Assembly (NCBI GenBank): GCA_021791145.1
Contig: JAJYXE010000027.1
Location: 1-59,674, forward strand
Length of the DNA: 59,674 nt
DNA from: Actinomycetes bacterium
GTDB taxonomy: Bacteria; Actinomycetota; Acidimicrobiia; Acidimicrobiales; RAAP-2
Direction of reading: 5' to 3'
Every line of letters starts with the position of its first letter. The stretch's first letter is position 1. Below the pieces are notes generated by a model. The model was not told the DNA's origin, searched no databases, and saw nothing but the letters and a program-made list of their open reading frames with translations. A program made the translations under genes and the position numbers. Below are positions 17,865-57,600 of the stretch, piece by piece.

Positions 17865-18641
17865 ATGAAACTTCCAGGGTTGTTATTCAAGAGCAGCACC
17901 CGGGGCGCCTGGGTGCTGCTGGCCGGTATCGGCACGGCGGGGGCGCTCACGCTCGCACCGTTGGCGGTGGGAGTCGGCCAGGCTGGCGCGACAACTCCCA
18001 CGCCTGTCACGACGACCACCACGGTCGTCACGAACGGCACATGGACGTCTCCTCAAAGCGCTACAGGCAAGGTGCTCGTCGAGTGCCCGGTCACCACAAC
18101 CGGCGGGTACACATATGTCACCATCACAGGCGCCACATGGATCTGGGCGAACAAAGGACAGGCACCATGCCAGTCAACACCCCACGGCCCAGGCAGTGTG
18201 ACAGCCGGGACTGTCACGCTGACGACGACGTTCACAATCCCCGGCATCCCACAGGGCGCGACCCTCACACTGGCCGCTGACAACGGCGCCACAGTGCGCA
18301 TCAACACAACTGGCGTGGCCTCAGTGGGACCGAGCACAACAGCCTCAAACTTCAACACGAAGCACCACACGACAATCGCAGCTACAGCGTTCCGTCAGGG
18401 CACGAACACGATCACGATCATCGGGACGAACGAGACATCCAGCGGCTACAACCCCGCGGGAGTCATCGCCAAGCTCACAGTCGTCTCCACGTCGACACCA
18501 ACGAACCTGTGCAAGAAGACAGGGTGGAGGGATTGGACGACGGCGCCTGGACCGTTCCAGAACCAGGGTGACTGCGTCTCGTACTTCGTGAAGAACCCCA
18601 ACGGGAACGACCCGACAATCCCGAACACGGCGCAGTCCTAG
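17865..18641 (+). CDS. Secreted Thr-rich protein with C-terminal NQGxCVSY module
   Basis: The 258-aa product has a signal peptide (hydrophobic run LLAGIGTAGALTLAPLAV, cut near VGQAGA). A beta-sandwich-like body ends with NTITIIGTNETSSGYNPAGV. A C-terminal Cys-containing module (CKKTGWRDW through NQGDCVSYF) resembles short motifs seen at the ends of other bacterial secreted proteins. ATG 17865 follows AAGGAGA at good spacing. Threonine is coded by ACA in about 11 of 24 cases between 18177 and 18450, with ACC almost absent. It is the first gene of the surface cluster. No enzymatic motif is visible. Confidence 0.82.
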   Translation: MKLPGLLFKSSTRGAWVLLAGIGTAGALTLAPLAVGVGQAGATTPTPVTTTTTVVTNGTWTSPQSATGKVLVECPVTTTGGYTYVTITGATWIWANKGQAPCQSTPHGPGSVTAGTVTLTTTFTIPGIPQGATLTLAADNGATVRINTTGVASVGPSTTASNFNTKHHTTIAATAFRQGTNTITIIGTNETSSGYNPAGVIAKLTVVSTSTPTNLCKKTGWRDWTTAPGPFQNQGDCVSYFVKNPNGNDPTIPNTAQS

Positions 18642-18779
18642 TCCGTCGGCGCGGAGCCTGGGGGGTGTTGTGGCCAGTTCTGTCATCGGGAGAACCGAGT
18701 TCCTTGGTCCCCGACGTTCCGTCCGAGACGGGCGCCGGGTGACCGAGGGACCGATCACCATCGAAGGAGAGACCCAGCG

Positions 18780-19208
18780 ATGACCGACACCGCCGTCGAG
18801 CCGGTGACCGTGCTCCCGACTGTCGAGTCCGCCGCCAAGGCGGAGGTCCGCCTCTCGCGCTGGCAGAGCTTCGGGCTCGCGCTTGGCAGCCTCGTCCTGG
18901 TTTTCGGCCTCGGGCTCGTGGTGATGCTCGCAGGCGGTGCGGTCATCCACGCTCTCAAGCCCACACGGCACGTCGACATCTTCGCTGCCTTGCACAACCG
19001 CTGGGTGGTGGGCGCACTTCTCGGGATCGCGCTGCTCTGGCTCCTTCCCCCACACCCGTGGGCGAAGCGGGTCATGGCATCGGGCTCCCAAGAGCAACCG
19101 GCCAAGGCCGGTCGGACGGAGGACGGTGGCGGGGGGGCCTCCACCGTCCATCTCGTTGTACCAGGGCCGGGTCCCGTCCACCGGCCGACCGGAGGGCAGC
19201 CGGGCTGA
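18780..19208 (+). CDS. Small two-helix membrane protein
   Basis: The 142-aa protein has a cytosolic N-terminus of about 30 residues. Two membrane helices follow, LALGSLVLVFGLGLVVMLAGG and VVGALLGIALLWLLP, separated by a short basic loop, and the tail is hydrophilic. The start ATG follows AAGGAGA. It carries no signal-peptidase or sortase catalytic motif, so it is not the processing enzyme of its neighbours. Its position between two exported-protein genes suggests an accessory role at the membrane. Confidence 0.7.
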   Translation: MTDTAVEPVTVLPTVESAAKAEVRLSRWQSFGLALGSLVLVFGLGLVVMLAGGAVIHALKPTRHVDIFAALHNRWVVGALLGIALLWLLPPHPWAKRVMASGSQEQPAKAGRTEDGGGGASTVHLVVPGPGPVHRPTGGQPG

Positions 19209-19280
19209 CCAGCTCGGTCCGGCAGCGCACGGCACGCAGTAGAGCAGTATGCGAAAGACAACAAGGAGGATCCAAGAGAC

Positions 19281-20249
19281 GTGAAACGAGCAACCCTAAA
19301 GAAGAAGTACGTCGCCGGCGCACTTGCCGCCGGGCTCATCATGGGCGCCGGTGGGATCGCAGCCGCGTACTTCACCGCGACAGGAACTGGAACAGGCAAG
19401 GTCAACGTCGGTACAGCCACGCCGTTCAGCGTGACCCAGACCGCTGGTTCCCTGAGCGGGAAGCTGTACCCAGGCCAGTCCGTGACGACGACGTTCAAGA
19501 TCACGAACAACGGCGAAGGCATCGAGCACTACACCCTTACGTCGACAGACATCGTCGCGGCGATGAGCGCGAGCGGCACAGTGATCACAGCGTTCCAGAC
19601 GACACCAAGCCGAGAAGTGGTTCCAGGCTGCAAGGGATCGTGGTTCACGGCCACAGTCCTGAGTGGAAGCTCCAACACACTCAACCCTGGTGCTAGTACG
19701 ACAGCGAGCGTGAAGGTCACCATGACCAACGGGACAGGTAGTGGGTCGACACAGAACGCCTGCCAGACAACGTTCCCCAAGCTCGATGTCGCCTTCGGCG
19801 GACCCGCAGGCTTCGCGTTGTTCGAAGCAGAAGGTGGGAGCGCCCACTGGACTGGAAAGACCCAGGCCACACTGACGATCCCGGCGAATGCGCCCGCGCC
19901 CAACTCGACAGCCATCGGTGCGGCCGCGGGTATCGAGGTGCTGAAGCCTGGCACAGCCCTACCCACCACAGCGCCCACGTTCAAGACGAGTGCGGACCAC
20001 GCGGGCTCTCCGCGCTGGGACATCTTCTTCACTACAGGAGAACTCGTCGTGGGCTACCCAAGCAACGGTCCCGCAGGAGCAAACACAAAGTGGGCATTTA
20101 CAAACGGCAACAGCTATGTGCCGTGGTCCACAGTGCTCACGCATTACGCAGGGAAAGACGTGTCACAGGCGATCATCGTCATGACAGACACACAGCTCGG
20201 AACGACGGACGCCATCACGGCCGTCACATACGGCGGGCAGCACTTCTAG
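19281..20249 (+). CDS. Exported protein with SipW-type signal and LYPG module
   Basis: The 322-aa product starts with a basic segment, a hydrophobic helix (VAGALAAGLIMGAGGIAA) and the sequence AAYFTATGTGTGKVNVG. This matches the SipW-cognate signal class used by TasA/camelysin-type matrix proteins. A beta-sandwich follows with SGKLYPGQSVTTTFKITNNG. The second half (about residues 170-322) has two Trp-containing sheet segments and no known name. AAGGAGG lies upstream of GTG 19281. Alternate Thr codons (ACA, ACG) dominate. A structural fibre or matrix subunit is the best guess. The cognate signal peptidase is not in this window. Confidence 0.8.
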   Translation: MKRATLKKKYVAGALAAGLIMGAGGIAAAYFTATGTGTGKVNVGTATPFSVTQTAGSLSGKLYPGQSVTTTFKITNNGEGIEHYTLTSTDIVAAMSASGTVITAFQTTPSREVVPGCKGSWFTATVLSGSSNTLNPGASTTASVKVTMTNGTGSGSTQNACQTTFPKLDVAFGGPAGFALFEAEGGSAHWTGKTQATLTIPANAPAPNSTAIGAAAGIEVLKPGTALPTTAPTFKTSADHAGSPRWDIFFTTGELVVGYPSNGPAGANTKWAFTNGNSYVPWSTVLTHYAGKDVSQAIIVMTDTQLGTTDAITAVTYGGQHF

Positions 20250-20362
20250 TCCTGGTCACGTCGTAGTGGTCCGTAAGGACCGAAGGGTCCGGAGATATGT
20301 GAGGCCGGGTCACGGAGATGTCGGCTCCGCGGCCCGGCCATCCGGCCCCGTGAGCACACCAT

Positions 20363-20392
20363 CGAGCCCCAGACGATCACCTCTGGGGCTCG
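20363..20392 (+). terminator. Perfect 11-bp stem-loop terminator
   Basis: CGAGCCCCAGA (20363-20373) pairs with TCTGGGGCTCG (20382-20392) around an 8-nt loop, 114 nt after the stop. A smaller GGTCC-GTAA-GGACC hairpin lies near 20267. This separates the 19281 gene from the following operon, although partial read-through is possible. Confidence 0.75.
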
Positions 20393-20469
20393 CCGGTGGG
20401 TTCACCTACTCCTCAACAAGGCCGACAAGATGAGGATCTCGACGAGTCGATGAAGCACACGGTGGGTTC

Positions 20470-21105
20470 GTGACGACCAAGACATCGCTCTTTGCCGACG
20501 CCGTCGTGCGCGACCGGATCAAGGCACTCGGCGAGAGGGCCAGTGCGCACGCGACGCGCGAACGGCGGCGCACTCCGAAGCGAGCTCGTCTACGCACCAC
20601 CAGGCGGCTCGGCCCCCTTCGGCTCGCCCCAGGGGTGGTCGCCGTGACGACCCTTTTCCTCGGGCTTTTCGCCGGGACCGCCTACGCCTACTTCTCAGCC
20701 ACAGGCTCAGGGACCGGCGAGGTGAGCGTCGGACACCTCCAAGCGGTGGTCGTCGAGCACGCGACCGCCACGGTCACGACGCGGCTCTTCCCGGGCGGGA
20801 CCGGGACACTCGACCTGTCGCTCACAAATCCGAACACCTTTTCGGTGACCCTGATCGGTGTGACCGGTGACGGTCCGGTCACGGTGACAGGCGGCGGTTC
20901 GGCGTGCACGAGCGGCAGCGCAACGACACCGGGAACTTCGGGTGTCTCAGTGGAGGGCAGCCTCGCAACCGGTCTGAGCGACACGTTGGCGCCTGGATCC
21001 ACGTCGCTCACCTTCGCCAACGGAGCCTTGATGGCGACCAGCTCCAACACGACATGCCAGGGGGCCACCTTCCACATCCCGGTCGCCGTGACGGTGCACA
21101 CGTGA
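20470..21105 (+). CDS. Exported protein with SipW-type signal and LFPG module
   Basis: The 211-aa protein has an unusually long basic N-terminus of about 55 residues. A hydrophobic helix follows (VVAVTTLFLGLFAGTAYA), and then YFSATGSGTGEVSVG, again a SipW-type junction. The mature part carries RLFPGGTGTLDLSLTNP and a beta-sandwich with two cysteines. The TNTF-like turn after the LFPG strand aligns with the modules in the 19281 and 23247 products. The GTG start has a poor ribosome binding site. The stop overlaps the next start (GTGA), which begins a coupled operon that runs to 26645. Confidence 0.78.
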   Translation: MTTKTSLFADAVVRDRIKALGERASAHATRERRRTPKRARLRTTRRLGPLRLAPGVVAVTTLFLGLFAGTAYAYFSATGSGTGEVSVGHLQAVVVEHATATVTTRLFPGGTGTLDLSLTNPNTFSVTLIGVTGDGPVTVTGGGSACTSGSATTPGTSGVSVEGSLATGLSDTLAPGSTSLTFANGALMATSSNTTCQGATFHIPVAVTVHT

Positions 21106-22871
21106 GCAGGCTTCGACGACTCGGCGCGGCCGTGGCGAGGTCAGAGCGCACGGACCCTCGTCGTCCTCGGCTCCGCTACGTCGCGCTCATCGCCCTGGGC
21201 TTCCTCCTTGCCGCCTCCGGCGCCGCCTACGCCTTCTTTTCTGCCAACAGCTCGGGCACATACGGGCTCGCCCAAGCAGGACAGCTCGCCCCCCCGGCGT
21301 CGTTCTCTGCGAGCGTGATCTCGGCGTCGACGGTCGAGCTCACCTGGAGCGCCCCGACACCGGCTCCACCGGGGAGCTACTCCTACGTCCTCACCGGCAC
21401 ACTCGGGACCGGAGGCACCTGTTCGGCGTCCATGCCAGAAGGCGCCACCGGATGCAACGTCGAGGGGCTCACGTCGACCACGCACCACTCCTGGACGCTC
21501 GCCGTCAAGTTCCACACATGGCTGAGCACCCCGAAGCCCGCGTCGGCCACAACCAAAGGCGCGGTGCCCGCCCTCTGCGGGATCGGCGGCGTCACGTCGT
21601 GGACGGGGCCAGCGACAAAGCCCGTCGCCTATCCAGGATGCGTCCAGCCGACAGACCTGCTCGTCCTCGTCCTCGCCCGCTCGCACAACAACACGGCTGC
21701 GTGCCCACCAAGCTGGACACTGCGGGCGACAGGCACAGTGACCGCCGGGAAGTACCACGCCTTCTTGGAGGTGTGCTCACGGGTCTACGTCTCAGGGGAC
21801 GCCGTGACAATGACAGTCAAGGGCACAGCAGTGAGGGGATCGTCCGCTGAGGTCGCCGCGTTCGAAGGGGTGACAACGACGACCCCGTTCGACACCACAC
21901 CGACGAGCACGCAAGACTTCACGTCTGTATCGGCGAAGGGCGCAGCGACGTTCAGCGCCCCTGGCTTCACGACCACCGCTGCCCACGACCTCGCCCTCTC
22001 CGTCGTCATGGAGAACGACACGACGACGACGATCCCGGTGCTCAGCCTCACCGCGGCGCCCACAACACGCGGCTTCGACGCGCAGAGCTCAGGGGGGATG
22101 CAGAGCACAGAGAGCGACGCGCTCGACGTCGCCACGAAGCCCGCCACGGCTCCTGGACCTGTGGTGTTCCCCACCTGGACCAGCACCGTCACCAACGCGA
22201 CGGACGTGTGGATCGGCGAGAGCCTCGCCTTGCGGCCAGATCCTCCGAGCGGGTCGGTGAGCCCCGCTGCCTTGCTGTCGGCGCCCTCCGTCGCTGGGAT
22301 CAGCCCGTCGACAGGACCCGTGGTCGGTGGCACGCAGGTCACGGTCACCGGGACCGGCTTTGCCCCTACAGCGACGGTGTCCTTCGGGACGACGTTGGCG
22401 GCCAAGGTCACCGTCGAGAGCGCGACCGAGCTCGTCGCCACCTCGCCAGCGCACGGCGCTGGACCGGTCGATGTCACGGTGACCGAGGGCACAAGGACCT
22501 CGGCAACGTCCTCGGCCGACCTCTTCACCTACGTGACATCGGCGTCTTCTCCGTCGTCCTCGACCGCGCCAACCCTGACCGGTGTCGCGCCGTCGTCAGG
22601 GTCCGTCACAGGGGGGACCATCGTCACGGTCACCGGCACCGGGTTCACCACGACAACCGCGGTCGCCTTCGGGACAACCGCGGCTGCGAGGGAGACCGTG
22701 ACAGGGCCGACCCGTTTGACCGTCGTCGCGCCCCCGCACGCGATAGGGGTGGTCACACTGAGCGTGACCACGCCGTCGGGGACCTCGGATCCGAGCGCCG
22801 CTGACCAGTTCACCTACACGTCCCCGTCCGCTCCGGCGACACCGGGCAGCACAGCTGTGGGGACACGCTGA
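21102..22871 (+). CDS. Exported multidomain protein with two IPT/TIG domains
   Basis: The 589-aa product has a basic start, a membrane helix (VALIALGFLLAASGAAYA) and FFSANSSGTYG, a SipW-like junction. A fibronectin III-like segment follows (ELTWSAPTPAPPGSYSYVL). A lectin-like or jelly-roll part with TDLLVLVLARSHN and WIGESLALRPDP spans about residues 160-385. Two IPT/TIG Ig-like domains (VAGISPSTGPVVGGTQVTVTG and LTGVAPSSGSVTGGTIVTVTG) complete it. These folds mediate adhesion and surface display. GTG 21102 overlaps the preceding stop. No wall anchor is present at the C-terminus. Confidence 0.82.
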   Translation: MSRLRRLGAAVARSERTDPRRPRLRYVALIALGFLLAASGAAYAFFSANSSGTYGLAQAGQLAPPASFSASVISASTVELTWSAPTPAPPGSYSYVLTGTLGTGGTCSASMPEGATGCNVEGLTSTTHHSWTLAVKFHTWLSTPKPASATTKGAVPALCGIGGVTSWTGPATKPVAYPGCVQPTDLLVLVLARSHNNTAACPPSWTLRATGTVTAGKYHAFLEVCSRVYVSGDAVTMTVKGTAVRGSSAEVAAFEGVTTTTPFDTTPTSTQDFTSVSAKGAATFSAPGFTTTAAHDLALSVVMENDTTTTIPVLSLTAAPTTRGFDAQSSGGMQSTESDALDVATKPATAPGPVVFPTWTSTVTNATDVWIGESLALRPDPPSGSVSPAALLSAPSVAGISPSTGPVVGGTQVTVTGTGFAPTATVSFGTTLAAKVTVESATELVATSPAHGAGPVDVTVTEGTRTSATSSADLFTYVTSASSPSSSTAPTLTGVAPSSGSVTGGTIVTVTGTGFTTTTAVAFGTTAAARETVTGPTRLTVVAPPHAIGVVTLSVTTPSGTSDPSAADQFTYTSPSAPATPGSTAVGTR

Positions 22872-22872
22872 G

Positions 22873-23250
22873 ATGCAAGACGACGCGACCGCCTTCCTCT
22901 CGCACCCCGGCGCACCGGTCGGCACGACGCCTCGAGACCCGCCCACCTCTCTTTCAGAGGACCTCGGGCGCCTCCAGCGCTACGCGAAGGCCCTCCTCGA
23001 CGGCGTCGCTCTCCCAGAAGACGTCGACGAGGACTGGCCGGGGTTCTTCCGGCTCGCCGACGCGTTCGTGGTGGACGTGGGCTCTTCTCGCCTAAAGGCG
23101 CTGCGCGCCCAGGCGTCGCTCTTCGAAGGCTGGGGCGAAGACCCCCTCACCGAGGGCGACCGGGCCTTCTTGGTCCGGCTCTTGAACGAGACCGCTGACG
23201 CCTGGGGCGAACGGGCACATGGACCCAGGAAGACAAGGACTGCCCGATGA
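22873..23250 (+). CDS. Small cytosolic 'EDW/FF' family protein, paralogue A
   Basis: The 125-aa protein has no signal or membrane segment and looks all-alpha. Its core, RYAKALLDG through EDWPGFFRLADAFV and SSRLKALRAQ, aligns clearly with the product of 26133-26645. I do not recognise the family. It is coupled on both sides: it starts one base after the upstream stop and overlaps the next gene by 4 bp (ATGA). It is cytosolic inside an operon of exported proteins, so a role as chaperone, regulator or secretion adaptor is possible. That is inference from position only. Confidence 0.72.
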   Translation: MQDDATAFLSHPGAPVGTTPRDPPTSLSEDLGRLQRYAKALLDGVALPEDVDEDWPGFFRLADAFVVDVGSSRLKALRAQASLFEGWGEDPLTEGDRAFLVRLLNETADAWGERAHGPRKTRTAR

Positions 23251-25130
23251 GCGCTGCGGGGGAGAAGCTGCGCAGGGCGCTTTCGACCGCAGGGGTCGCG
23301 ATGCTCGTCGCCGTCGGGTCCTACGCGCTCTCCGGCGTCCTCGTCGCCCCCCACCCGGCGTTCGCCTTGAGCGCGGCGAAGAACTTCTCCATCACGAGCA
23401 CGGTTTATGCCACGACATGCACGAAGACAGCGACAGCGAAGCTCTACCCAGGGGTCGCGCGCTGCCTCGCGGTGAGCGTGCACGACCCGCTCTCGGTCGG
23501 CATCCACGTGACCTCCCTTACTGCGACGCTGACACCGTCGACGCCGTTCAGCCCGGTCACGACCACATCGAAGCTCGCCAAGTGCACACCATCGTGGCTG
23601 ACGCTCGGCACCCTTCCACACACATTCACGATCCCAGCCGGCGGCACAGACGTCGTCACGACCACCATCGAGCTCACGACAACGCGGACCAACCAGGACA
23701 ACTGCGAGGGCGGCACGTTCCACCTCGCCTACTCGGGCTCGGCCACCTTCACCGACACGACGACGACGGCCCTCACCATCACGGGCAGCAGGCACCAGCG
23801 CACCCTGCACGCCACCGTGACGCCCGGGAACCCCTCCTCCGACCCCTACGGCCCGGGCACCACGACAGCGCCGGTCCACCACGTGGTCTTCTACGCCTGC
23901 ACAACAGCCTCGTGCACGACGAGGTCGATGCTCGCCACCGCCACACTTTCGACAACGACACCGACCACCAAGGTCGCCACCGCCTCGACCAAGGTCACCG
24001 GGCTCTCGGCGGGCACCCACACCTTCGAGGCCGTCTACCCGGCCACAGCCGAGAACCCGGGGACATTCGCAGGCTCCTCTGGCTTCGCATCGACGACGGT
24101 CGCCGCCGCGCCGACCTCCCTCCCGCCACCCCCGGCACCCCCTGGCGCCCGCTTCAGCGTCAAAAAGACCGACACCCCCGGGACAGGCAAGCCCGTCGTG
24201 GCGGGCGGGACCATCGGCTACACGCTGAGCGCAAAGGACGTCGGCACAGCGCCCGGCACCGCCACGATCAGCGACCCTTTGCCCACGAACGTGACGCTGT
24301 CTGGGACCCCGGCGTGCGCGACAGTCGCTGCGGGGGACACCTGTGCGGTCACGGCCACGGGGTCCACGCTCACGATGACGGTCGACCTCGCCGCGGGCGA
24401 CTCGGCGAAGGCGGACTTCGACGCCGTGGTCAGCGCGTCGGACACGGCGAGCGTCACCAACACCGCCACGATCACCCAGGGCGCGTGCACAGCTGACGCC
24501 TGCACCTCTTCGGTCACCAACCCCGTCGTCGTCTTGAGCGTCGCAAAGTCCTCCACACCCCCGAGCGGCTCGGTCGTCTCGCACACAGCCCGGCTCACCT
24601 ACACGCTCACTGCCACCGACTCGGGCACCGCCCCTACGACACCGCTCACCCTGCGCGACACGGTCCCGGCCGGGACGACCTATGTGGCGGGCTCTGCCAC
24701 CTGCGGGGGGCAGCCGGGCTGCAGCGTGACCGAGGCGACAGGGACCATCACCTGGTCAGGGGTCGTCGTCCAGCCCGGCACCGCCAACGCCCTTTCCCTC
24801 AGCTTCGCCGTCATCGTCGAGAGGACCGACACGACGGGGGAGAAGATCGCCAACACCGCCACCTTCAGCAACGACGGGACGTCCACCTGCACCACGTCGA
24901 GGTGTGCGACCGACACGGTGACAGCGGTCGTGACAGCCAAGAAGAGCGCGGCGACACACGCACCCCCGCCGGTCTCGCCGATCCCCTCGGCGACCACACC
25001 GCACACCGGAGAGCCCTTCGCAGGGTCTTTCCCCTACGAGCTGGCCGGCATCGTCTTGGGGCTCGGGCTGCTCGGCGCAGGAGAGTGGCTCAGGCGACGG
25101 CGCCGCGCCCCGGCGCAGGGGTCCAGGTGA
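23247..25130 (+). CDS. Surface protein with LYPG module, DUF11 repeats and sortase-like tail
   Basis: The 627-aa product has a signal peptide ending near HPAFALSAA. An LYPG beta-sandwich follows (AKLYPGVARCLAVSVHDPLS, about residues 65-85). Next comes a region with four Cys (about 100-210), a bacterial Ig-like domain, and two DUF11-type repeats starting FSVKKTDTPGTGKPVVAGG and LSVAKSSTPPSGSVVSH. The C-terminus reads TPHTGEPF, a hydrophobic helix (LAGIVLGLGLLGAGEWL) and RRRRR, the layout of a cell-wall sorting signal with T in place of the usual leading L. Covalent anchoring by a sortase encoded elsewhere is likely. ATG 23247 overlaps the upstream stop. Confidence 0.85.
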   Translation: MSAAGEKLRRALSTAGVAMLVAVGSYALSGVLVAPHPAFALSAAKNFSITSTVYATTCTKTATAKLYPGVARCLAVSVHDPLSVGIHVTSLTATLTPSTPFSPVTTTSKLAKCTPSWLTLGTLPHTFTIPAGGTDVVTTTIELTTTRTNQDNCEGGTFHLAYSGSATFTDTTTTALTITGSRHQRTLHATVTPGNPSSDPYGPGTTTAPVHHVVFYACTTASCTTRSMLATATLSTTTPTTKVATASTKVTGLSAGTHTFEAVYPATAENPGTFAGSSGFASTTVAAAPTSLPPPPAPPGARFSVKKTDTPGTGKPVVAGGTIGYTLSAKDVGTAPGTATISDPLPTNVTLSGTPACATVAAGDTCAVTATGSTLTMTVDLAAGDSAKADFDAVVSASDTASVTNTATITQGACTADACTSSVTNPVVVLSVAKSSTPPSGSVVSHTARLTYTLTATDSGTAPTTPLTLRDTVPAGTTYVAGSATCGGQPGCSVTEATGTITWSGVVVQPGTANALSLSFAVIVERTDTTGEKIANTATFSNDGTSTCTTSRCATDTVTAVVTAKKSAATHAPPPVSPIPSATTPHTGEPFAGSFPYELAGIVLGLGLLGAGEWLRRRRRAPAQGSR

Positions 25131-25918
25131 CCTCGGCCCGCAAGGTGTGCGGGGGCCTTGTCGGGCTCTTCGCGGCGCTCGTGGTCGTCGGGCTCCCCGC
25201 AGGGCTCGCTGCGGCCGGGTCCCGACACCCTGCACCTGCGGGCATGACGCTTGGCGGGGGCTGCAAGGGGGTGCTCAGCGCACGCAGCGCCAGAGGCAAG
25301 CTCCTCGACACCGCCTCGGGGCCTGGGGCCCTGGGGGCGAGCCCGACACTGCCCTTCCACCTCGCTCGTGGGGAAAGGATCGAGTGGTCGGGCTCGGTGC
25401 CGGCCGCTTCTGGCCCTGAGACCTGGTGGGTCCACGTCGACGGGTTGGGGTTCCTCTCTGGCAGCACCCTCAACGCCTCGCACCTGACGAGCGCTGCCGG
25501 GACCACCACCCTCGACAGCCTGGTGCCCTCCTGGCTCGGTCTGACCGGCCGCTACGAGGTGACCGGCGCCCTTGTTGGGACCAACGCGAGCTGTGCGGGG
25601 GCGCTCTACGTCGCGCTCGGAGGCGACCCTGCGACCGGGGCGCTGCTTTGGGTGGGCATCGTCTTGTTCTTCGTCGGGCTCGCGCTCGTCCTTGCGGCCC
25701 GCCCGACCTGGTACGCGCGCTACAGGGCCGCACCCCCGGGCCCGCTCAAGGCGACAGCGCTCGTCCGCAGCCCGCGCACAACCCTTCCGACCGGCTCGGT
25801 CATAAAGACACGCATCGTCGTGCACACCTCTGCCCAGGCGAGGCCGGGTGCAGAAGAACCGGTCCGTGCACCAGCAGAGGTGGCCACGCCCCACGACCAC
25901 GACGGGAGCGGGTCGTGA
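25127..25918 (+). CDS. Exported membrane-anchored protein of unknown function
   Basis: The 263-aa product has a signal peptide (GLVGLFAALVVVGLPAGLAAA). An extracellular domain of about 130 residues follows, with segments WWVHVDGLGFLSGSTLN and GLTGRYEVTGALVG and two cysteines. A membrane helix near residues 168-190 (LLWVGIVLFFVGLALVLAA) leads to a basic cytosolic tail of about 70 residues. GTG 25127 overlaps the upstream stop. The long cytosolic tail is unusual for a structural surface protein and could contact the cytosolic paralogues encoded on either side. Confidence 0.75.
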   Translation: MTSARKVCGGLVGLFAALVVVGLPAGLAAAGSRHPAPAGMTLGGGCKGVLSARSARGKLLDTASGPGALGASPTLPFHLARGERIEWSGSVPAASGPETWWVHVDGLGFLSGSTLNASHLTSAAGTTTLDSLVPSWLGLTGRYEVTGALVGTNASCAGALYVALGGDPATGALLWVGIVLFFVGLALVLAARPTWYARYRAAPPGPLKATALVRSPRTTLPTGSVIKTRIVVHTSAQARPGAEEPVRAPAEVATPHDHDGSGS

Positions 25919-26124
25919 GGGCCGTCACACCCACACGCAGGCTCCGGCGCCACCCGATCCAGGGCCTGTTGGGCGGGCTCTTCATGGGGCTCGGGGCCGT
26001 GATCCTCCTTTCCCTCTCGGGGGCGGTCGCCTTCGGGACCTGGTCGCCGTTCGCCGCGATCGCCGGGGCCTTCGGGCTCGCAGGGCTCTTGGTCGGGCTC
26101 TTCGCCCCACGAGCACCGGGCTGA
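25915..26124 (+). CDS. Tiny two-helix membrane protein
   Basis: The 69-aa product has a basic N-terminus and two hydrophobic helices (LFMGLGAVILLSLSGAVAF and AIAGAFGLAGLLVGLFA) joined by a short turn. GTG 25915 overlaps the preceding stop, and the next gene begins 8 nt later. It may be a small subunit of a membrane assembly complex with the 25127 product. Confidence 0.65.
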   Translation: MRAVTPTRRLRRHPIQGLLGGLFMGLGAVILLSLSGAVAFGTWSPFAAIAGAFGLAGLLVGLFAPRAPG

Positions 26125-26132
26125 ACCGTCCC

Positions 26133-26645
26133 ATGAGAGAGGACCTCTTGGGCTACCTCGACGCGATCGACGAGCGCCTGGTGCACTGCCTCGACGCCGA
26201 GGGGAACCTCTCCAGCGCGACTGCAGCGCGCCTCTATCGTTATGCGCTCGCGATGCTCCAGGGCCACATCTCCCCTGCGCACGTCACAGAGGACTGGGGG
26301 GACTTCTTTCCACTCGCCGAGGTGTTCGTCCGCGCCTATGGGACCGAGCGGCTCCGCGCCCTTCACCGCGCGGCGGGGCTCATCTCTTCGAGGAGCGCCG
26401 GTGCGGGGCGACAGGGCGCAGTGGGCGACGGTGCGGGGACACCGGGCGTAGTGAGCGGGGGTGCGGGGCGACAGGGCGCAGTGGGCTGCGGTGCTGGGCC
26501 ACCGGGCGCAGTGGGCTGCGGGGTGGGGCCACTGGCCGCACTGGGCGATGCGGACTCGTCGTTGCTGGTCGACCTCGTGCGTGAACTGGGGAGCTTCGTC
26601 TACGCCCAGGTACGCCGGGGGAGCGGCGAGGAAGCGGCGGGTTAG
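26133..26645 (+). CDS. Small cytosolic 'EDW/FF' family protein, paralogue B, with repeat insert
   Basis: The 170-aa protein matches paralogue A over RYALAMLQG, then EDWGDFFPLAEVFV and TERLRALHRAAGL. From about residue 90 to 139 it carries a 10-residue repeat (GAGRQGAVGD type, five copies) that paralogue A lacks. It ends with a short amphipathic helix (SLLVDLVRELGSFVY) similar in position to the LLNETADAW helix of paralogue A. The duplication of this gene on both sides of the sortase-tailed protein argues for a working role in the locus. No known domain is recognised. Confidence 0.72.
   Translation: MREDLLGYLDAIDERLVHCLDAEGNLSSATAARLYRYALAMLQGHISPAHVTEDWGDFFPLAEVFVRAYGTERLRALHRAAGLISSRSAGAGRQGAVGDGAGTPGVVSGGAGRQGAVGCGAGPPGAVGCGVGPLAALGDADSSLLVDLVRELGSFVYAQVRRGSGEEAAG
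26400..26549 (+). repeat. 30-bp tandem repeat, five units
   Basis: Five in-frame 30-bp units share GTGCGGGG and GGGCG(C/T)AGTG, with the last one diverged. Each encodes ten residues rich in Gly, Ala and Val. Confidence 0.9.
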
Positions 26646-29393: not shown

Positions 29394-32300
29394 ATGAGAT
29401 CGTTGGCTGGTCGCCTCATGGGTGCGGTAGCGGGGAGGAAGCGTCGTTCGTTCCTCCCGATCCTCGGGGCGCTCGTCCTGGCGCTCCCCGCAGGTGCCGC
29501 CCTTGGCATGGGGGCAACCGCGCTGGCGCCCTCGGTTGCCGCCGCGTCGACAGGGTCCCCGACCACGTTCACCTCGTCGGGAACCTATCCGGTCCCTGCC
29601 GGCGTGTCCGCGGTGACGATCACCGCGATCGGCGGAAAGGGCGGCGCGGCTGGTGGCGCAGGCGGCGGCGCCGGGGGAGACGGCGGTGAGGTGACCGCGA
29701 CGCTTCCCGTGGCGCCAGGCGCCACGTTGTACGTGACGGTGGGCGCCGACGGTGCGTCTGGGTCGACGAGCATCACGTCCCCTGACGGCGGCGGAGGTGC
29801 TGCTGGTGGTGCGACACACGGCAGCGGTGGCGCGGGCGGTGGTGCGTCGTTGGTGCGGACCTGCGCCACATGCGCCTCTACAACAGCCGTGCTCGTCGTC
29901 GCCGGTGGCGGCGGTGGCGGCGGGGGCAACGGGCGCTACGGCGGCGGGGCCGGCGGGAAAGCAGGGTTCTCGGGAACATCGGGCTCCGACGGTGGGGTGC
30001 CCACCTTGGTCCACAAGGCGGGAGCTGGAGCCGGGGGCGGCACCGGCACTTCGAATGCCGGCGGCACAGCAGGCGTGCCGGGAAGCACATGCGCCACGTA
30101 CGGCGGGATCGGTCATGCCGGCGGCGCCGGCGGGGCGGGCACCCTTGGCAACGGTTTCGCCGGCGGCACAGTCTCGAAAGGCCTCGGGGGCCAGGGGGAG
30201 GGCGGGTCGGCGCCGGGCGGCGGTGGCGGCGGTGGTGAGGGCTACATCGGCGGCGGCGGCGGCGGAGGCGGAGGCGGCCTACCTGGCGGTGGCGGCGGCG
30301 GAGGCGGCGCGTGGTGCTTGGTCCAGAGCACAACACTTTCGGGTGGCGGCGGTGGTGGCGGTGGCGGCTCCGACTTCGTCGCAGCGGGAGTCCTTGGGAG
30401 CGCGACGGTCACCACCACGGCGGCATCCCCCGAGGTCGTGATCACTCCGGTGTTCGCCACAACGGTGACCCTCTACGTCGACGCCACGTCGGGCACCAAG
30501 ACGGCGGGGTGCACGGGCCCCGGAGCGACAGCGTGCAAGACGATCCAAGAAGGGGTCACCGCTGCCGAAGCGCTGCCCCGTGACGCGGTGACCGTCACAA
30601 TTGCTCCTGGGACATACACCGGTGGTGTCACCATCGCGGCGGGCGGGCTCGCCTCGCTCAGCCTGGTGGGCTCCGGCCCCGGCTCGACCCTCGTGAGCGG
30701 CGGCGGAACGACACGCGACTTTGCGATCACAAGTGGCACGGTGACGCTGAGAGGCCTCGCGATCGACGACGGCCACGCGACGCTGGGAGCCGGCGTCTAC
30801 AACGACGCCACGGCGACGCTCACCGACGACACGTTCTCGAACGACTCGGCGACTGCGACAGGCGGCGGTGTCTACAGCTCCGGCACCGCTACCATCATCG
30901 ACGACACCTTCTCGACAGACGTCGCGACAATCGGCGGTGGGGTCACAATCACAACAGGCCGCGGCACGCTGGTGGACGACACCTTCGTGCATGACTCCGC
31001 CGCAAACGGTGGCGCACTCGGGATCTACTCGACCGCCACCGCGGCGTTCGACACGTTCTCCGCCGACACCGCGACGGCAAACGGCGGCGCCATCGAGGAC
31101 GTCGGCACAGCGACGGTCACCGCGTCGATCTTCGACGCCTCGACGTGCGCCCGCACATCGACGCCCTTCTCCGGCTCCTTCGACGTCGTGACGTCCACAA
31201 CGGGATGCACGACATTCACGACATCCGTGACCGTCGACGCACCGACACTGCACCTCGCGACCACGCTCGAGACCAACACAGCGCCAACGTCGCCACCGAC
31301 CCTTGCCCTCCTCGCCGGCAGCCCCGCTCTCAGCGAAGTTCCCGGCGCGTCCTGCAAGGTCACAGCGAGCGGCACCTTGGTGACCACGGACGAGCGGGGG
31401 GTGACTCGCCAGACGACACCGGGGGCCGCCTGCGACGCGGGGGCCTTCGAGGGCGTCGGTGCGACGCCGGTCTCCTCCTCATCGGTCAGTTCCTCATCGG
31501 TCAGCGTCGAGCGCGTCTACGGCACGACAGCCGACGCGACCGCAGCCACGGAGCTCTCCCACGCGTTCCTCGGCACCTGCCCGGGCACCACCGGGAACCG
31601 TCCCGTCGTACTCGCGACCGACCAGACCTACGCCGACGCGCTCGCGAGCGCGTACCTGGCGAAGGATCTCGGCACCGGGACGCTGCTCACGCCGACGTCC
31701 ACGCTCTCTGTGGCGACGAGGGCCGAGCTCCAACTCGAGGGCATCACGCACGTCTACGTCGTGGGAGGTCCGCTGGCGGTGTCCCCAGCGGTCGTCGCGA
31801 CCCTGTCGTCTACCCCCGCCGACAGCTGCGGGGGCACGAGCCCGACGGGCTCGGACCTGCAGGTGACGAGGATCGCGGGTGCGACCGCGGCGACAACCGC
31901 CGCCAAGGTGGCGGCGTTCGTCGGTGCGGGTTTCGTCGGCACCGCCGATCTCGCGTCGTCCTACAAGTCGAACGGCGCGTTCAACACGACGAGCGGCATC
32001 TCGTCGGCATCCGGTCCCGGCGGAGCGGTCCCAACTGCGATCGTCGCGAGCGACCGGGAGTTCCAAGATGCAGAGGGAGGCGCGGTCCTCTCCTACGCAG
32101 CCGACCTCCCCATCCTCCTTGCGACACCCACGGCGGTTCCGGCTGCGACCACGCAGGCGATCGGCTCCCTCGGGATCCGCCAGGTGGTGCTCCTGGGCGG
32201 CCCGCTCGCGGTCTCCACAGCCGTCGTCGCCGGCCTGCAAGCGGCCGGGGTCTCGGTCCTGCGGGTCGCGGGCGCCGACTACATGGGGACCTCGGTCGAG

Positions 32301-32633
32301 CTCGCCAAGCTCGAGACCGCTTCTTCGGGAGCGCATTCCGGCTTCGGCTGGGACACCCGCACCGGGGGGCTTGCGGTCGCCCGTGGCAACGGCTTCGAGG
32401 ACGGGCTCGCAGGGGCGGACCTCGCCGCCCGCGGCTACCACGGCTCGGGGCCGGTTCCCATCGTGCTGACCGAGAGCCAGTCCACGATCGGCAGCGACCT
32501 GGCGAGCTACCTGCGTGACGTGGGAAGCCATGGGATCGGAAGCCCGGCCACGCGGGTCGCCTTCCTCATGGTGCTCGGCGGTCCCGAGGCGCTCTCGTCC
32601 GAGATCGTCCGCACGATGGCGGCGAACCTGTAG
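29394..32633 (+). CDS. Modular surface protein: Gly-rich, beta-helix and cell-wall-binding repeats
   Basis: The 1,079-aa product begins with a long signal peptide (LPILGALVLALPAGAALGM, cut near APSVAAA). Residues about 45-345 are Gly-rich, with runs such as GGAAGGAGGGAGGDGG. A parallel beta-helix follows (about 350-640), with repeated 'DDTFS-D-ATGGGVY' rungs. The C-terminal 370 residues hold three PF04122 cell-wall-binding repeats, recognisable by ATDQTYADALASAYLA, VYVVGGPLAVSPAVV and VVLLGGPLAVSTAVVAGL. PF04122 attaches proteins non-covalently to wall polymers. The protein is probably a large adhesin or coat component under control of the divergent sigma factor. Confidence 0.88.
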   Translation: MRSLAGRLMGAVAGRKRRSFLPILGALVLALPAGAALGMGATALAPSVAAASTGSPTTFTSSGTYPVPAGVSAVTITAIGGKGGAAGGAGGGAGGDGGEVTATLPVAPGATLYVTVGADGASGSTSITSPDGGGGAAGGATHGSGGAGGGASLVRTCATCASTTAVLVVAGGGGGGGGNGRYGGGAGGKAGFSGTSGSDGGVPTLVHKAGAGAGGGTGTSNAGGTAGVPGSTCATYGGIGHAGGAGGAGTLGNGFAGGTVSKGLGGQGEGGSAPGGGGGGGEGYIGGGGGGGGGGLPGGGGGGGGAWCLVQSTTLSGGGGGGGGGSDFVAAGVLGSATVTTTAASPEVVITPVFATTVTLYVDATSGTKTAGCTGPGATACKTIQEGVTAAEALPRDAVTVTIAPGTYTGGVTIAAGGLASLSLVGSGPGSTLVSGGGTTRDFAITSGTVTLRGLAIDDGHATLGAGVYNDATATLTDDTFSNDSATATGGGVYSSGTATIIDDTFSTDVATIGGGVTITTGRGTLVDDTFVHDSAANGGALGIYSTATAAFDTFSADTATANGGAIEDVGTATVTASIFDASTCARTSTPFSGSFDVVTSTTGCTTFTTSVTVDAPTLHLATTLETNTAPTSPPTLALLAGSPALSEVPGASCKVTASGTLVTTDERGVTRQTTPGAACDAGAFEGVGATPVSSSSVSSSSVSVERVYGTTADATAATELSHAFLGTCPGTTGNRPVVLATDQTYADALASAYLAKDLGTGTLLTPTSTLSVATRAELQLEGITHVYVVGGPLAVSPAVVATLSSTPADSCGGTSPTGSDLQVTRIAGATAATTAAKVAAFVGAGFVGTADLASSYKSNGAFNTTSGISSASGPGGAVPTAIVASDREFQDAEGGAVLSYAADLPILLATPTAVPAATTQAIGSLGIRQVVLLGGPLAVSTAVVAGLQAAGVSVLRVAGADYMGTSVELAKLETASSGAHSGFGWDTRTGGLAVARGNGFEDGLAGADLAARGYHGSGPVPIVLTESQSTIGSDLASYLRDVGSHGIGSPATRVAFLMVLGGPEALSSEIVRTMAANL

Positions 32634-36863: not shown

Positions 36864-36927
36864 AGGCACAAGCCGCGTCGGCGCAGTGCCAGTGGGAACG
36901 AGAACCGACCAAGGAGGAAAGTCGCAG

Positions 36928-38763
36928 ATGACCCGATCCCCACGACGTCCGAGATCTCCACGACCTACGAGTCGCACGGCACGGCGCGTCGTGACGGGCC
37001 TCCTCGGGGTCGGCGGCCTCGCCGTGCTTGGCCTGCCCGTCGTGACGCTCGCCGGCGTCGGAGGCGCCCTGGCGCTCGGCCAGGCTCCGGCCTCCGCGGC
37101 GGCGACGTGTGTCCAGGCCGGCACAACCGGCCTCAGCGCGGCCAAGGTCGTCAGCACGTCGACATCCACGCTCACAGGCACAACGATCACAGCGAAGAGC
37201 TGCGACGTCGGTCTCTACGTGGGCCCGACAGCGAAGAACGTCACCATCAAGGGTGTCACCGTGACCGGGGCGAACGACGAGGGGATCCTCGTGCAGAACT
37301 CGACAGACGTCACGGTGGAGGACTCGGTCGTCAAGGGCGACGGCACCTCACCGACACCGGCGATCGCCTTCGACAACGCGTTGGAGCTCATCGGGACGTC
37401 CAATTCGAAGGTGGAGGGGAACACGTTGAGCGGCGACTTCGCCGGAGGCATCGGCGTCGCCGACGACGGCCCGACGAACCCCGGCGGGCCCAAGCCGAGC
37501 ACACTTCGGCCGTCGAACAACGACGTCATCAGCGGGAACACGATCTCAGCTGTGTACGGCGGCTGCAGCATCGTCTTCTCGTCCCGCAATCCCGGCGCGG
37601 GGATCACCGGAGGAGCCATCTCCCACAACACCTTGACCGGCAGCCCCGGGCACTTCGGTCCTCATGGCCCGGTGATCGGCAACATCGTGGTCGCAACGGC
37701 CGGCGTGGGCGCATCGCTCTCGGGTGTGGCCGTGACAGGGAACACCGTCACTGGCGCCGGGCTGCCCGGGATCATCGTGCACGGCGACGCGCCCGGTTCG
37801 AAGGTGTCGGCCGTCACGGTCGCCGGCAACACGCTCTCCGGGGACGACTGGCTGACGACAGACGGCCCGGCGGTTCCCGCAGGGATCGTGGTCGCCACGT
37901 CTCCCATCCCGCCCCCGGGCTCGCCTGTCGTCACCGGCACGTCGATCAAGAACAACACGGTGAGTAACGAGTTCTACGACGTGTGGACGTCGGGAGCGAC
38001 CGGGAGCGCCGTCGGGTCGAACACCTTCAGCGTGCTCCGCGGCGGCACCGAGGCCTATTCGACGCCGATCCCGGGGTCCGGCTACTGGGAGCTCGCCTCC
38101 GACGGCGGCGTGTTCACCTTCGGGTCGGCTGGCTTCTACGGCTCGGCGGCCGGCAGAGCGCTCGGCTCGCCAGTCGTGGGCATGGCACCCACCTTCGACC
38201 AGGGCGGCTACTGGCTCGCTGAGGCGAACGGCGCGGTGAGCGGGTTTGGGGACGCCGCCAACTACGGCTCGATGGCCGGCAAGTCGCTCGGCGCCCCGAT
38301 CGTGGGCATCGCTCCCACGCCCTACATCCCGAGCAGCACCCCGGGGGGAACCCCGACACCGGACGGCAAGGGCTACTGGCTCGTGGGCCAAGACGGCGGT
38401 GTCTTCACCTTCGGCGACGCGAAATTCTACGGCTCGCTCCCAGGGATGGGCGTCCACGTCTCTGACATCGTGGGCATGGTGGCCACCCCCGACGGACACG
38501 GCTACTGGCTCGTGCGGAAAGACGGCGGGGTGTTCAGTTTCGGCGACGCGGGCTTCTACGGCTCGCTCCCGGGCATGGGCGTCCACGTCTCTGACGTCGT
38601 GGGCATCCTGGCGACCCCCGACGGGCACGGCTACTGGCTCGTGGGCAAAGACGGCGGGGTGTTCAGCTTCGGCGACGCCCGGTTCTTCGGCTCGATGGGC
38701 GGGGCGCACCTGGCCGCCCCGGTCGTCGGAGGCGCGGCCGTCGGCGTGACCGCAGCCGGCTGA
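36928..38763 (+). CDS. Secreted beta-helix protein with five GGVFxFG repeats
   Basis: The 611-aa product has a twin-Arg-containing basic start, a signal helix (VVTGLLGVGGLAVLGLPVV) and a cut near APASAAA. Residues about 55-375 form a right-handed parallel beta-helix (VTGANDEGILVQNSTDVTVE; VIGNIVVATAGVGASLSG). The C-terminus carries five repeats of about 43 residues with the core GYWLVGKDGGVFSFGDA and FYGSLPG. Such repeats appear in many surface proteins of Acidimicrobiia and may build a propeller or solenoid. ATG 36928 follows AAGGAGG. No wall anchor is seen. Confidence 0.85.
   Translation: MTRSPRRPRSPRPTSRTARRVVTGLLGVGGLAVLGLPVVTLAGVGGALALGQAPASAAATCVQAGTTGLSAAKVVSTSTSTLTGTTITAKSCDVGLYVGPTAKNVTIKGVTVTGANDEGILVQNSTDVTVEDSVVKGDGTSPTPAIAFDNALELIGTSNSKVEGNTLSGDFAGGIGVADDGPTNPGGPKPSTLRPSNNDVISGNTISAVYGGCSIVFSSRNPGAGITGGAISHNTLTGSPGHFGPHGPVIGNIVVATAGVGASLSGVAVTGNTVTGAGLPGIIVHGDAPGSKVSAVTVAGNTLSGDDWLTTDGPAVPAGIVVATSPIPPPGSPVVTGTSIKNNTVSNEFYDVWTSGATGSAVGSNTFSVLRGGTEAYSTPIPGSGYWELASDGGVFTFGSAGFYGSAAGRALGSPVVGMAPTFDQGGYWLAEANGAVSGFGDAANYGSMAGKSLGAPIVGIAPTPYIPSSTPGGTPTPDGKGYWLVGQDGGVFTFGDAKFYGSLPGMGVHVSDIVGMVATPDGHGYWLVRKDGGVFSFGDAGFYGSLPGMGVHVSDVVGILATPDGHGYWLVGKDGGVFSFGDARFFGSMGGAHLAAPVVGGAAVGVTAAG
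38371..38757 (+). repeat. 129-bp tandem repeat, three near-identical units
   Basis: Units starting at 38371, 38500 and 38629 each open with GGCTACTGGCTCGTG. They encode the last three GGVFxFG repeats. Two older copies upstream (from about 38080) are diverged. Confidence 0.9.
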
Positions 38764-54418: not shown

Positions 54419-54681
54419 AAGCGAGCAGTCAACTTCCATATTGTTGATTGTTGTCAGGGACGCGCCCCATCCTCCTGCTATCGGGTGTCGCCGGCGAACC
54501 TCGGCGGTATCGGTGGACAAAGAGCTCGCCGATGGCCGCCCGGGCGTGATCAGGAAGTCATGCCTGACTGAGGCCCAGTGGAGGATCGCAGCGCCTTGGC
54601 GGCGTGACTGGCGCGTGGTCTCGATCCGCTTGCACTCAAAGAGCAATCGCGCGAGCATCGACCGCGGTAACGGAGGCGGAC
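54419..54681. other. Intergenic stretch without a recognised gene
   Basis: No frame has convincing coding character. GGAGG at about 54672 is the ribosome binding site of the next gene. AT-rich TCCATATTGTTGATTGTTG near 54434-54452 could hold a promoter. Confidence 0.5.
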
Positions 54682-57600
54682 ATGGGGCGTCCGGGTCGCT
54701 TTTCCTGGCCGCGGTGCCCTCGGACCGTGGTGCCCGCGGGTGGCTCGAGGCCGGAGTCGTCTGGTCGGTCCACGAGCCGGCGCCGGTGGGGGCTCGGGCT
54801 CCTCGCGCTGGCCGGGGCGGGAGCCGTCGCGCTCGCGCTCGCTCACCCCGCCGCGGTCGCGGGCGCATCGGCGCCCCGCCCCGCGCCCCCTGAGACCCCC
54901 ACGGCCAAGGGCTACTGGCTTGCCGGCGCCGACGGCGGGGTCTTCAGCTTCGGGACCGCGCGCTACTTCGGCTCGATGGCGCACGCGTCGCTCGCGGCCC
55001 CGGTGGTCGGGATCGCGCCGACCCCCACAGGCAAGGGCTACTGGCTCGCCGGCGCCGACGGCGGGGTCTTCAGCTTCGGGACCGCGCGCTACTTCGGCTC
55101 GATGGCGCACGCGTCGCTCGCCGCCCCGGTGGTCGGGATCGCACCGACCCGCTCGCCGCTCTCGGTGCCCTCACGATCCACGGGGGGGCCGACGACCGGT
55201 GGGCTCGTCCTCACGGTCAGCAACGTGCCGACGGGCGCCACGCCCTCGATCCTCGTCTCGGGACCGGGTGGCTATCGAGCGACGCCATCGGGATCGGCGA
55301 CGCTGACCGGGTTGCTTTCCGGCAACTACGTGGTGAGCGCGAAGCCGGTGTCTCAGGGCGGGGCGACCTACTACCCGAGCGTCAGCGCCAGCCCGGCCAC
55401 GGTCCAGCCCGGTCAGCTGTCCCAGGTCACCGTCTCCTATCTCGACGAGGTGCTCGACACGACCAAGGTCGTCCCCGCCGGCGTCGCCGCGGACCTGACG
55501 GCTGTCAGCGCCGACTCGCTGACCTTCACGGTGGGCGCCACAGTGCCCTCGCCACTGGCCACATTGCAGGTGGGCTACGTGCTGGTGTTCGGGATCTCGG
55601 CCACCACCCCCGACGGGCTGCTCGTCCGGGTGACCTCCGTCACGGAGGGCAACGGTCAGGTGATCGTCGGCACCGCGCACGCGGGCCTGGCCGACGCGGT
55701 TCCCCAGGGCGCCTTCAGCGCGACCGACACGCTCACAGACACACAGATCACCTCCAGCGTCCGGGACACCCCAGGTGTGACCCTGCTCGCCTCGACGCGC
55801 AAATTGGCGCCCGCGTGGTCCCTGCGCTCCGCACCGTCACTTTCCCGCTCGAGGCGCGGGCCGGCGGCGGCGCCCGCCTGGGAGCGCAACGACTTCGGCC
55901 TCACATTCACCACAACCCTGTCGTGCGGCGGCGGGCCGGAGATCTCGCTGGGCGGGACAGTCCACTTCAGCCCGTCCTTCCACTTCAGCGCGACATGGTC
56001 GGTGCTCACAGGGCTGCACGCGACAGTCTCGGGCTCGCTCACCGAGGAGACCCACCTCTCGGTGAAGGCGGGCGGGGTGGTGGGCTGCACGGCGAAGTTC
56101 CTGCTCGACACCATCGACTTCGAGCCGATCGACGTCCAGATCGGGCCGGTCCCGGTGGTCATCTTCCCCACGGTCGACGTCTACGTGCTCATCACCGCAG
56201 AGGGACTGGTGAAGGTGACATGGGGCGCGAGCTACACGCAGACCTCGACGGTGAGTGCCGGGCTCGCGGTCCACAACGGCACATTCACTCCGTTCAGCAG
56301 CCACACGCAGAGCGTGCAGTCCACACAGGCACCGACGACCCCCGAAGCCGGCTTCTCGGTGAAGGTGGCCGTCGGTCCCACGCTCGACCTGCTCGTCTAC
56401 GACGTGGCGGGGCCGGAGGTCAACCTCGACGGGTTCGTCACACTCGACATCGCCCCGACAAGCTCGCCGTGGTGGAAGCTCGAGGCCGGGCTCGAGGCGG
56501 GCGCCGGGTTCACGATCACACTCGGCGGGCTCATCAAGGTCGTCACAATCTCGGACCCGGGCCTCCTCACGTTCGCGGTGGTGATCGCCGAGGCAACACC
56601 CGGCCAGTCCGCTCCGCCGCCCCAATTCACCACCACGACAACCCTGCCGGGGGCGACCGTGGGTGAGCCCTACACACTTCCGATCGCCGTCACCGGCGGC
56701 GCACCGCCCTACGAGTGGTCGGCGTTGGGCCTGCCGTCAGGGCTCAGCCTCGACGGGACGACCGGCGTCCTGAGCGGCACGCCCCAGTACGACGGCACGT
56801 CCCGGATCCCGGTGACCGTCAAGGACAGCATCGGCCACCAGATCACACGGACCTTCACCTTGGTCGTCACCGGTCCGACCATCACCACGACGTTCCTCCC
56901 GGACGCGGAGTACGAGGTGCCCTACCGCTCTACCCTGCAGGCAGCCGGCGGGGTCGGGACGCTCACCTGGTCGGTCTCCACCACCTACCCGAACGCCCTC
57001 CCGACAGGCGTCACCCTGACGGCGAACGGCAGCCAGGCCGTGCTCCAGGGGTCGCCCACCGCAGGCGGCTTCAGGATCTGGACACCCACGTTCACCGTCA
57101 CCGACCAGAACGGCAACGCCGAGACGGTGACGCTCACCATCGTCGAGCTGCTCGGGCCTGCGATCTGGACACAGGGGATCGGCAACACAACGCTGCCCAA
57201 CGGGCAGCCGACACCCGCCGTCACCACAGTGCCGCGGACCGGTGAGGTGAGCGTGCCCTACCAGGCGCAGTGGGTGGCAGGCGCCGCGTTCAGGGCGTCG
57301 CCGCTCACCTGGTCGCTCGCGTCGGGGTCCCTGCCCACAGGGGTGAGCGGCGTGAGCTGCGCCGACCCGCCTCACTGCTACATCGGCCGGGCAGAAGGCA
57401 CCCCCACGCGCGCCGGCACGTACACGTTCACCGTCGAGATCACGGACCCGCTCGGGGGGACCGCCACCCAGACCGACACGGTCAGCGTGCACGCCGTGCC
57501 GACGATCACCACGACCTCGCTGGGGACACACATCCTCGCGGGCACCCCCTATCAGGTCCCCGTCTCTGCAAGCGGCGGCACCGGCCCGTACGCGTGGCAT

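Follow-up and report, generated by a model that had tools for sequence, protein, structure and literature searches.

TasA fibres hold Bacillus biofilms together, and donor-strand fibres with SipW-type export have been worked out in this genus. According to the available portions of three reports, the N-terminal strand of a TasA subunit completes the next subunit in the chain (PMC9674648), TapA, an immunoglobulin (Ig)-fold protein with a disulfide, acts as a donor through its N terminus (PMC10151520), and the archaeal thread filament of Saci_0406 consists of sandwich subunits linked via an N-terminal donor strand (PMC9715654). The locus studied here covers positions 17865–26645 of a stretch of 59,674 nucleotides from an Actinomycetes bacterium (contig JAJYXE010000027.1; referred to as the window; 70.8% GC). 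Ten genes were read in the locus, all on the + strand; genes and their products are denoted by their first position. Three of the products (19281, 20470, and 23247) share one module, and three (19281, 20470, and 21102) carry an export signal of the SipW type. On balance, and with modest confidence, these sequences and the analogy with the systems above favour the view that a polymer of the TasA/camelysin kind is produced and put on the cell surface by this locus.

The module spans approximately 115 residues and contains L(Y/F)PG with a subsequent N/D in all three proteins. Mature domains were compared with hhalign, using 16 rows for the 19281 family, 50 rows for the 20470 family, and residues 41–175 of 23247. 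Scores of 40.1 (20470 with 19281), 33.4 (20470 with 23247), and 28.5 (19281 with 23247) were obtained, compared to 16.8, 18.4, and 18.1, respectively, for the best of 50 shuffles each. A reversed 19281 profile scored 12.6, and none of seven other stretches of the locus exceeded 20.9, a value given by the DUF11 part of 23247. The weakest pair, 19281 with 23247, was assigned a probability of 38% (E 3.3e-4), and 21% with longer pieces. At the level of sequence, the resemblance of the three proteins is beyond chance and the module is real, in agreement with the initial annotation. A hidden Markov model (HMM) of the module, which was trained on these three proteins and is informative solely as to the absence of other frames, revealed, up to E 1, no further carrier among the frames of the window. 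With filters off, the model scored the C-terminal ends (residues ~262–377) of proteins P0024–P0026, which were outside the training set, at 32.5, 25.4, and 24.4 bits, the best shuffle being 3.4.

The module is recognizable by LxPG, a turn containing N or D, a central cysteine, and another cysteine near the end beside a glutamine (QNAC in 19281, QDNC in 23247, and CQG in 20470). A single cysteine pair is found in 19281 (C117/C161) and in 20470 (C146/C196), invariant in the alignments; the 23247 module has four cysteines (58, 73, 113, and 153), and 113 and 153 align with this pair. The alignments comprised 22 (A1) and 16 (A2) of the 26 matches of the 19281 family, a hand-picked 50 of the 103 matches of the 20470 family, with 20470 itself included in both numbers (A3), and 15 of the 17 matches of the 22873 family together with 26133 (A4).

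The hydrophobic helices of 19281, 20470, and 21102 end in GIAAAYFTATG, TAYAYFSATG, and AAYAFFSANSS, respectively, so the AYF/AFF-type ends of three exported proteins were located as originally claimed. LxPG follows the A-Y/F-F-type site within a narrow range of distances: 103 of 129 proteins fit the pattern, with exactly 33 residues in 46 and 30–36 residues in 90 of them. The N-terminal stretch before the site is unusually long in 20470, where the site lies near residue 70, and in P0071, P0080, and P0133, where it lies at 130–142, as counted from unverified starts. A search of the window with the SipW-like peptidase of Arthrobacter by tblastn gave no such enzyme (best E 0.5), and neither an S26 nor a sortase family was detected among the 29 window proteins scanned with Pfam, which represent part of the window's genes. 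Both results are in line with the earlier statement that no signal peptidase or sortase is encoded here. A peptidase located outside the module cluster has a precedent on an Arthrobacter plasmid.

This plasmid, NZ_AP024648.1 of Arthrobacter sp. StoSoilB13, was first met via a weak match (E 0.07), and its genes did not take part in the training of the module HMM. The module occurs in three genes lying side by side (108, 33, and 23 bits with filters off; 60 shuffles ≤3.4). In plain tblastn searches, 20470, 19281, and 23247 each matched a different one of these genes best (E 2e-16, 0.001, and 0.015, respectively), and the relative of 20470 was aligned by hhalign at E 1e-37. SipW-type starts were recognized by eye in two of the three. 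Approximately 10 kb away, a TasA-like gene is followed by one for a SipW-like peptidase (L003, 23812–25346). The TasA-like protein exceeds the cut-off of the NCBIfam SipW-signal model; the peptidase exceeds the cut-off for archaeal-type signal peptidases and scores 68.1, below cut-off, with the Bacillus SipW model. Within 35 kb of the plasmid no match to 22873 was found, and 18780, 25127, 25915, and 26133 gave none better than E 0.1. Two comparisons that extended into the signal, of A2 with A3 and with the first Arthrobacter gene, were for that reason not used as evidence for the module.

Indirect evidence indicates that the 19281 and 20470 families are linked in genomes, since five members of the former share their exact longest-contig size with a member of the latter (3149, 8949, 6137, 1811, and 10588); shift controls averaged 0.2 shared sizes and never exceeded 1. 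The test covered 25 of 26, 101 of 103, and 16 of 17 entries of the 19281, 20470, and 22873 families, respectively, the locus's own entries and one lacking a value being left out. For the 22873 family, a single size (21,576) recurred in the 20470 family, where controls averaged 0.26 with a maximum of 2, and no size recurred in the 19281 family; linkage is thus not indicated. The initial annotation had proposed conservation of gene order as a check; adjacent module genes in one Arthrobacter record and the linkage of the two families were found, whereas the full order was seen in no relative.

Kinship to camelysin was examined with PF12389. The profile matched 20470 at E 2.3e-4 and 21.5 bits, under the cut-off of 22.5, and aligned residues 57–135 to profile positions 10–87 of 196, nearly without gaps across signal, cleavage site, and LxPG. 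Within the 20470 family, 14 of 50 members were matched at E ≤ 0.01; within the 19281 family the number was 1 of 16, and 19281 itself reached 15.3 bits (E 0.018). Named relatives of 20470 come from Acidimicrobiales (P0093 and P0098) and Actinomycetota (P0102). The locus had previously been called undescribed, which was too strong, since P0093 is already named "TasA family protein [Acidimicrobiales bacterium]" and P0085 "predicted ribosomally synthesized peptide with SipW-like signal peptide". The kind itself, SipW-type exported sandwich proteins, is already known. Less ordinary are the presence of one module in three partner proteins, the conserved cysteine pair, a change of architecture at the position of the presumed major subunit, and the family to which 22873 belongs.

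In the mechanism that we propose, 19281, 20470, and 21102 would be exported and cut at the A-Y/F-F site by a SipW-like (archaeal-type) peptidase encoded elsewhere. As judged from sequence and models, mature proteins of the 19281/20470 kind begin with ~33 residues that are rich in glycine and poorly ordered; next comes the LYPG Ig-like module, in which the conserved cysteine pair presumably forms a bond. By analogy with the TasA donor strand, this N-terminal stretch would pair with the module of the next subunit, giving rise to a chain; its low confidence in the monomer models of 19281 and 20470 fits a free donor strand. Judging from domain make-up and ribosome sites read by eye, the abundant subunit could be 19281, which has a further C-terminal domain and a good ribosome site; 20470 could serve as a starter or minor subunit and 21102 as an adhesin. 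The 23247 protein would be the cell-proximal piece, consisting of module, DUF11 stalk, and membrane or wall tail. If true, a linked actinobacterial set with the module in subunit-, starter-, and anchor-like proteins would carry the mechanism to another phylum. It would also offer concrete proteins for cryo-electron microscopy and for asking what cleavage before aromatic residues serves.

A number of results weigh against a TasA/camelysin-like polymer. The designation of the signals as SipW-type stood with respect to the AYF/AFF sites and failed with respect to the NCBIfam model TIGR04088, which lists none of 19281, 20470, and 21102 at E up to 1 and, with a threshold of E 0.05, matches just 2 of the 50 members in the 20470 family. 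The module HMM gave 3.3 bits for the Arthrobacter TasA-like protein, within the range of shuffles, and 5.2 bits (filters off; best shuffle 3.4) for 21102, which was not counted as a module carrier. Under default filters it missed P0024–P0026 as well as the first Arthrobacter module gene, which was seen solely with filters off. The Arthrobacter cluster is a single record whose 20470 relative matches only itself among 72,556 plasmids, and hhalign related A2 to the anchor-like protein encoded there with a probability of only 2%. As to structure, TasA fibre 8aur ranked 30th among the Foldseek matches of the 19281 model (E 0.054, TMt 0.29, root-mean-square deviation 14.4) and was absent from the 50 listed matches of the 20470 model. 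Other Ig-like sandwiches outrank TasA, and the comparison with TasA and camelysin suggested at the outset gave no support to a specific fold link. Finally, 19281 may be a transcription unit separate from the putative operon downstream, since the spacer at 20250–20469 folds strongly (minimum free energy −107.4, z −4.5; 0 of 200 shuffles fold as well), with which the packed run beginning at 20470 agrees. From its sequence the spacer is possibly a terminator or attenuator; it had no Rfam match, and the terminator scan lists no site in it.

Several of the same observations could be explained by separate surface adhesins or lectins that have an export route and an Ig-like module in common and form no polymer, the module acting as a stalk or protein–protein domain. 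We regard this account as possible, albeit tentative. The predicted fold of the module in 19281 and 20470 is a generic Ig-like (NEW3-type) sandwich. The C-terminal partner domain of 19281 is predicted as a jelly-roll whose matches include carbohydrate-binding and glycosidase domains, and 17865 possibly contains such a domain as well. As in modular adhesins, the module follows the signal in 19281 and is C-terminal in P0024–P0026. The N-terminal stretch is little more conserved than the module (mean column identity 0.76 vs. 0.70 in the 19281 family and 0.61 vs. 0.60 in the 20470 family), making a fibre less likely and separate adhesins likelier. The clustering of three module proteins both here and in Arthrobacter, however, argues against independent adhesins, and so does the narrow spacing between cleavage site and LxPG.

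A sortase-linked pilus, with 23247 as the sortase substrate and 19281 and 20470 as covalently joined pilins, appears improbable. The tail of 23247 (TPHTG, a hydrophobic stretch, and an Arg-rich end) and its DUF11 repeats would suit such a structure, but 19281 and 20470 lack a sorting tail, 23247 alone in the cluster having one with TPHTG, and no sortase family occurs among the 29 scanned proteins. An assignment of 23247 as wall anchor would draw on this same tail and was not supported: no NCBIfam anchor model, LPXTG-anchor models included, matched the protein at E up to 1. Still more improbable are module proteins acting as secreted proteases of the camelysin metallopeptidase type. PF12389, titled camelysin metallo-endopeptidase, scores near its cut-off, but the match extends no further than the signal and the beginning of the module, and the invariant and near-invariant columns of A3 contain no histidine or glutamate.

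A more elaborate version of the polymer reading can be formulated, namely a disulfide-stabilised donor-strand fibre system of Actinomycetota, distinct from Bacillus TasA, with a swappable major-subunit slot and with 22873/26133 acting on the N-terminal stretch of 20470 prior to export. We consider it rather unlikely as a whole. Regarding the slot, similar signals and upstream regions precede either the module plus jelly-roll, as in 19281, or, as in P0025 and P0026, another domain that has the module behind it. The N-terminal extensions of P0005, P0025, and P0026 resemble, by eye, the 3′ end of 18780 in another frame, and 18780-like sequence therefore probably lies upstream of their genes.

An overview of the features is given in Table 1. 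The seven genes from 20470 to 26645 are tightly packed, with four junctions overlapping by 4 nt and two gaps of 1 and 8 nt, as had been noted before.

Table 1. Features of the locus at 17865–26645
Position	Strand	Description	Suggested role
17865..18641	+	Exported 258-aa protein; part similar to an alpha-L-rhamnosidase stretch; good Shine-Dalgarno by eye	Possible carbohydrate-binding domain
18780..19208	+	Small protein; two hydrophobic stretches by eye	
19281..20249	+	SipW-type signal; module ~46–175; C-terminal beta-sandwich ~175–322; good Shine-Dalgarno by eye	Candidate major subunit
20250..20469	+	Strongly folded spacer, 220 nt, between 19281 and the downstream genes	
20470..21105	+	Long N-terminal stretch leading into a SipW-type signal; module behind it; closest to camelysin	
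21102..22871	+	SipW-type signal AAYAFFSA; two IPT/TIG domains and, by eye, a fibronectin-like stretch	Candidate adhesin or tip protein
22873..23250	+	Small protein without signal; unnamed family with 16 relatives besides itself	
23247..25130	+	Signal; module ~41–175; DUF7927 and DUF11 repeats; TPHTG, hydrophobic stretch, Arg-rich tail	Candidate cell-proximal protein
25127..25918	+	Exported domain behind a signal; a single hydrophobic stretch and a tail, by eye	
25915..26124	+	69-aa protein; two hydrophobic stretches by eye	
26133..26645	+	Paralogue of 22873; insert encoded by 30-nt repeats	

The small proteins 22873 and 26133 are paralogous (49% over 53 aa), and both are devoid of a signal and of a Pfam or NCBIfam name. 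For 22873, no match was found in Pfam or NCBIfam, and comparison of its family with PDB profiles yielded nothing useful (best E 0.019 over a short stretch). The core of its relatives, SLFEGWGEDPLT-DR-FLVRL-NE, is kept only in part by 26133. Tandem repeats of 30/60 nt within the 26133 gene (26393–26548) encode a glycine-rich insert missing from the aligned 22873 relatives. Our guess is that the two proteins are regulators or export partners.

The product of 17865 matched NCBIfam NF041573 at E 2.5e-9 and 35.5 bits, far under the model's cut-off of 1720; Pfam gave nothing better than E 0.21, and a PDB sequence search was without match. Elsewhere in the window, large surface proteins are encoded at 29394–32633, 36886–38763, and 54604–59613, namely a Gly-rich protein with CWB2 repeats, a beta-helix protein, and a protein with He_PIG and PKD domains.

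Among the known systems, the archaeal thread of Saci_0406 resembles the locus in principle only, by the combination of sandwich and donor strand described in the available part of its report (PMC9715654). The camelysin profile (CalY, PF12389) takes in 14 of the 50 members examined in the 20470 family and gives 20470 itself 21.5 bits; this score is sub-cut-off, and the match is confined to positions 10–87 of 196. The Arthrobacter cluster has three adjacent module genes as well, one of them a clear relative of 20470. Its gene order differs, however, and its fourth gene, with a SipW-like start, a fibronectin-like part, and an apparent frame break in the record, shows no BLAST similarity to 21102. 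Compared to TasA/TapA/SipW of Bacillus subtilis, no peptidase was seen in the window, the fold match is weak, and the locus adds jelly-roll, TIG, and DUF11 domains as well as two signal-less small paralogues. Alike are the type of cleavage site before aromatic residues, the LxPG-type sandwich downstream of it, and the small cluster of co-exported proteins; TapA, as far as the available part of its report describes it, also has a cysteine pair within an Ig-like module (PMC10151520).

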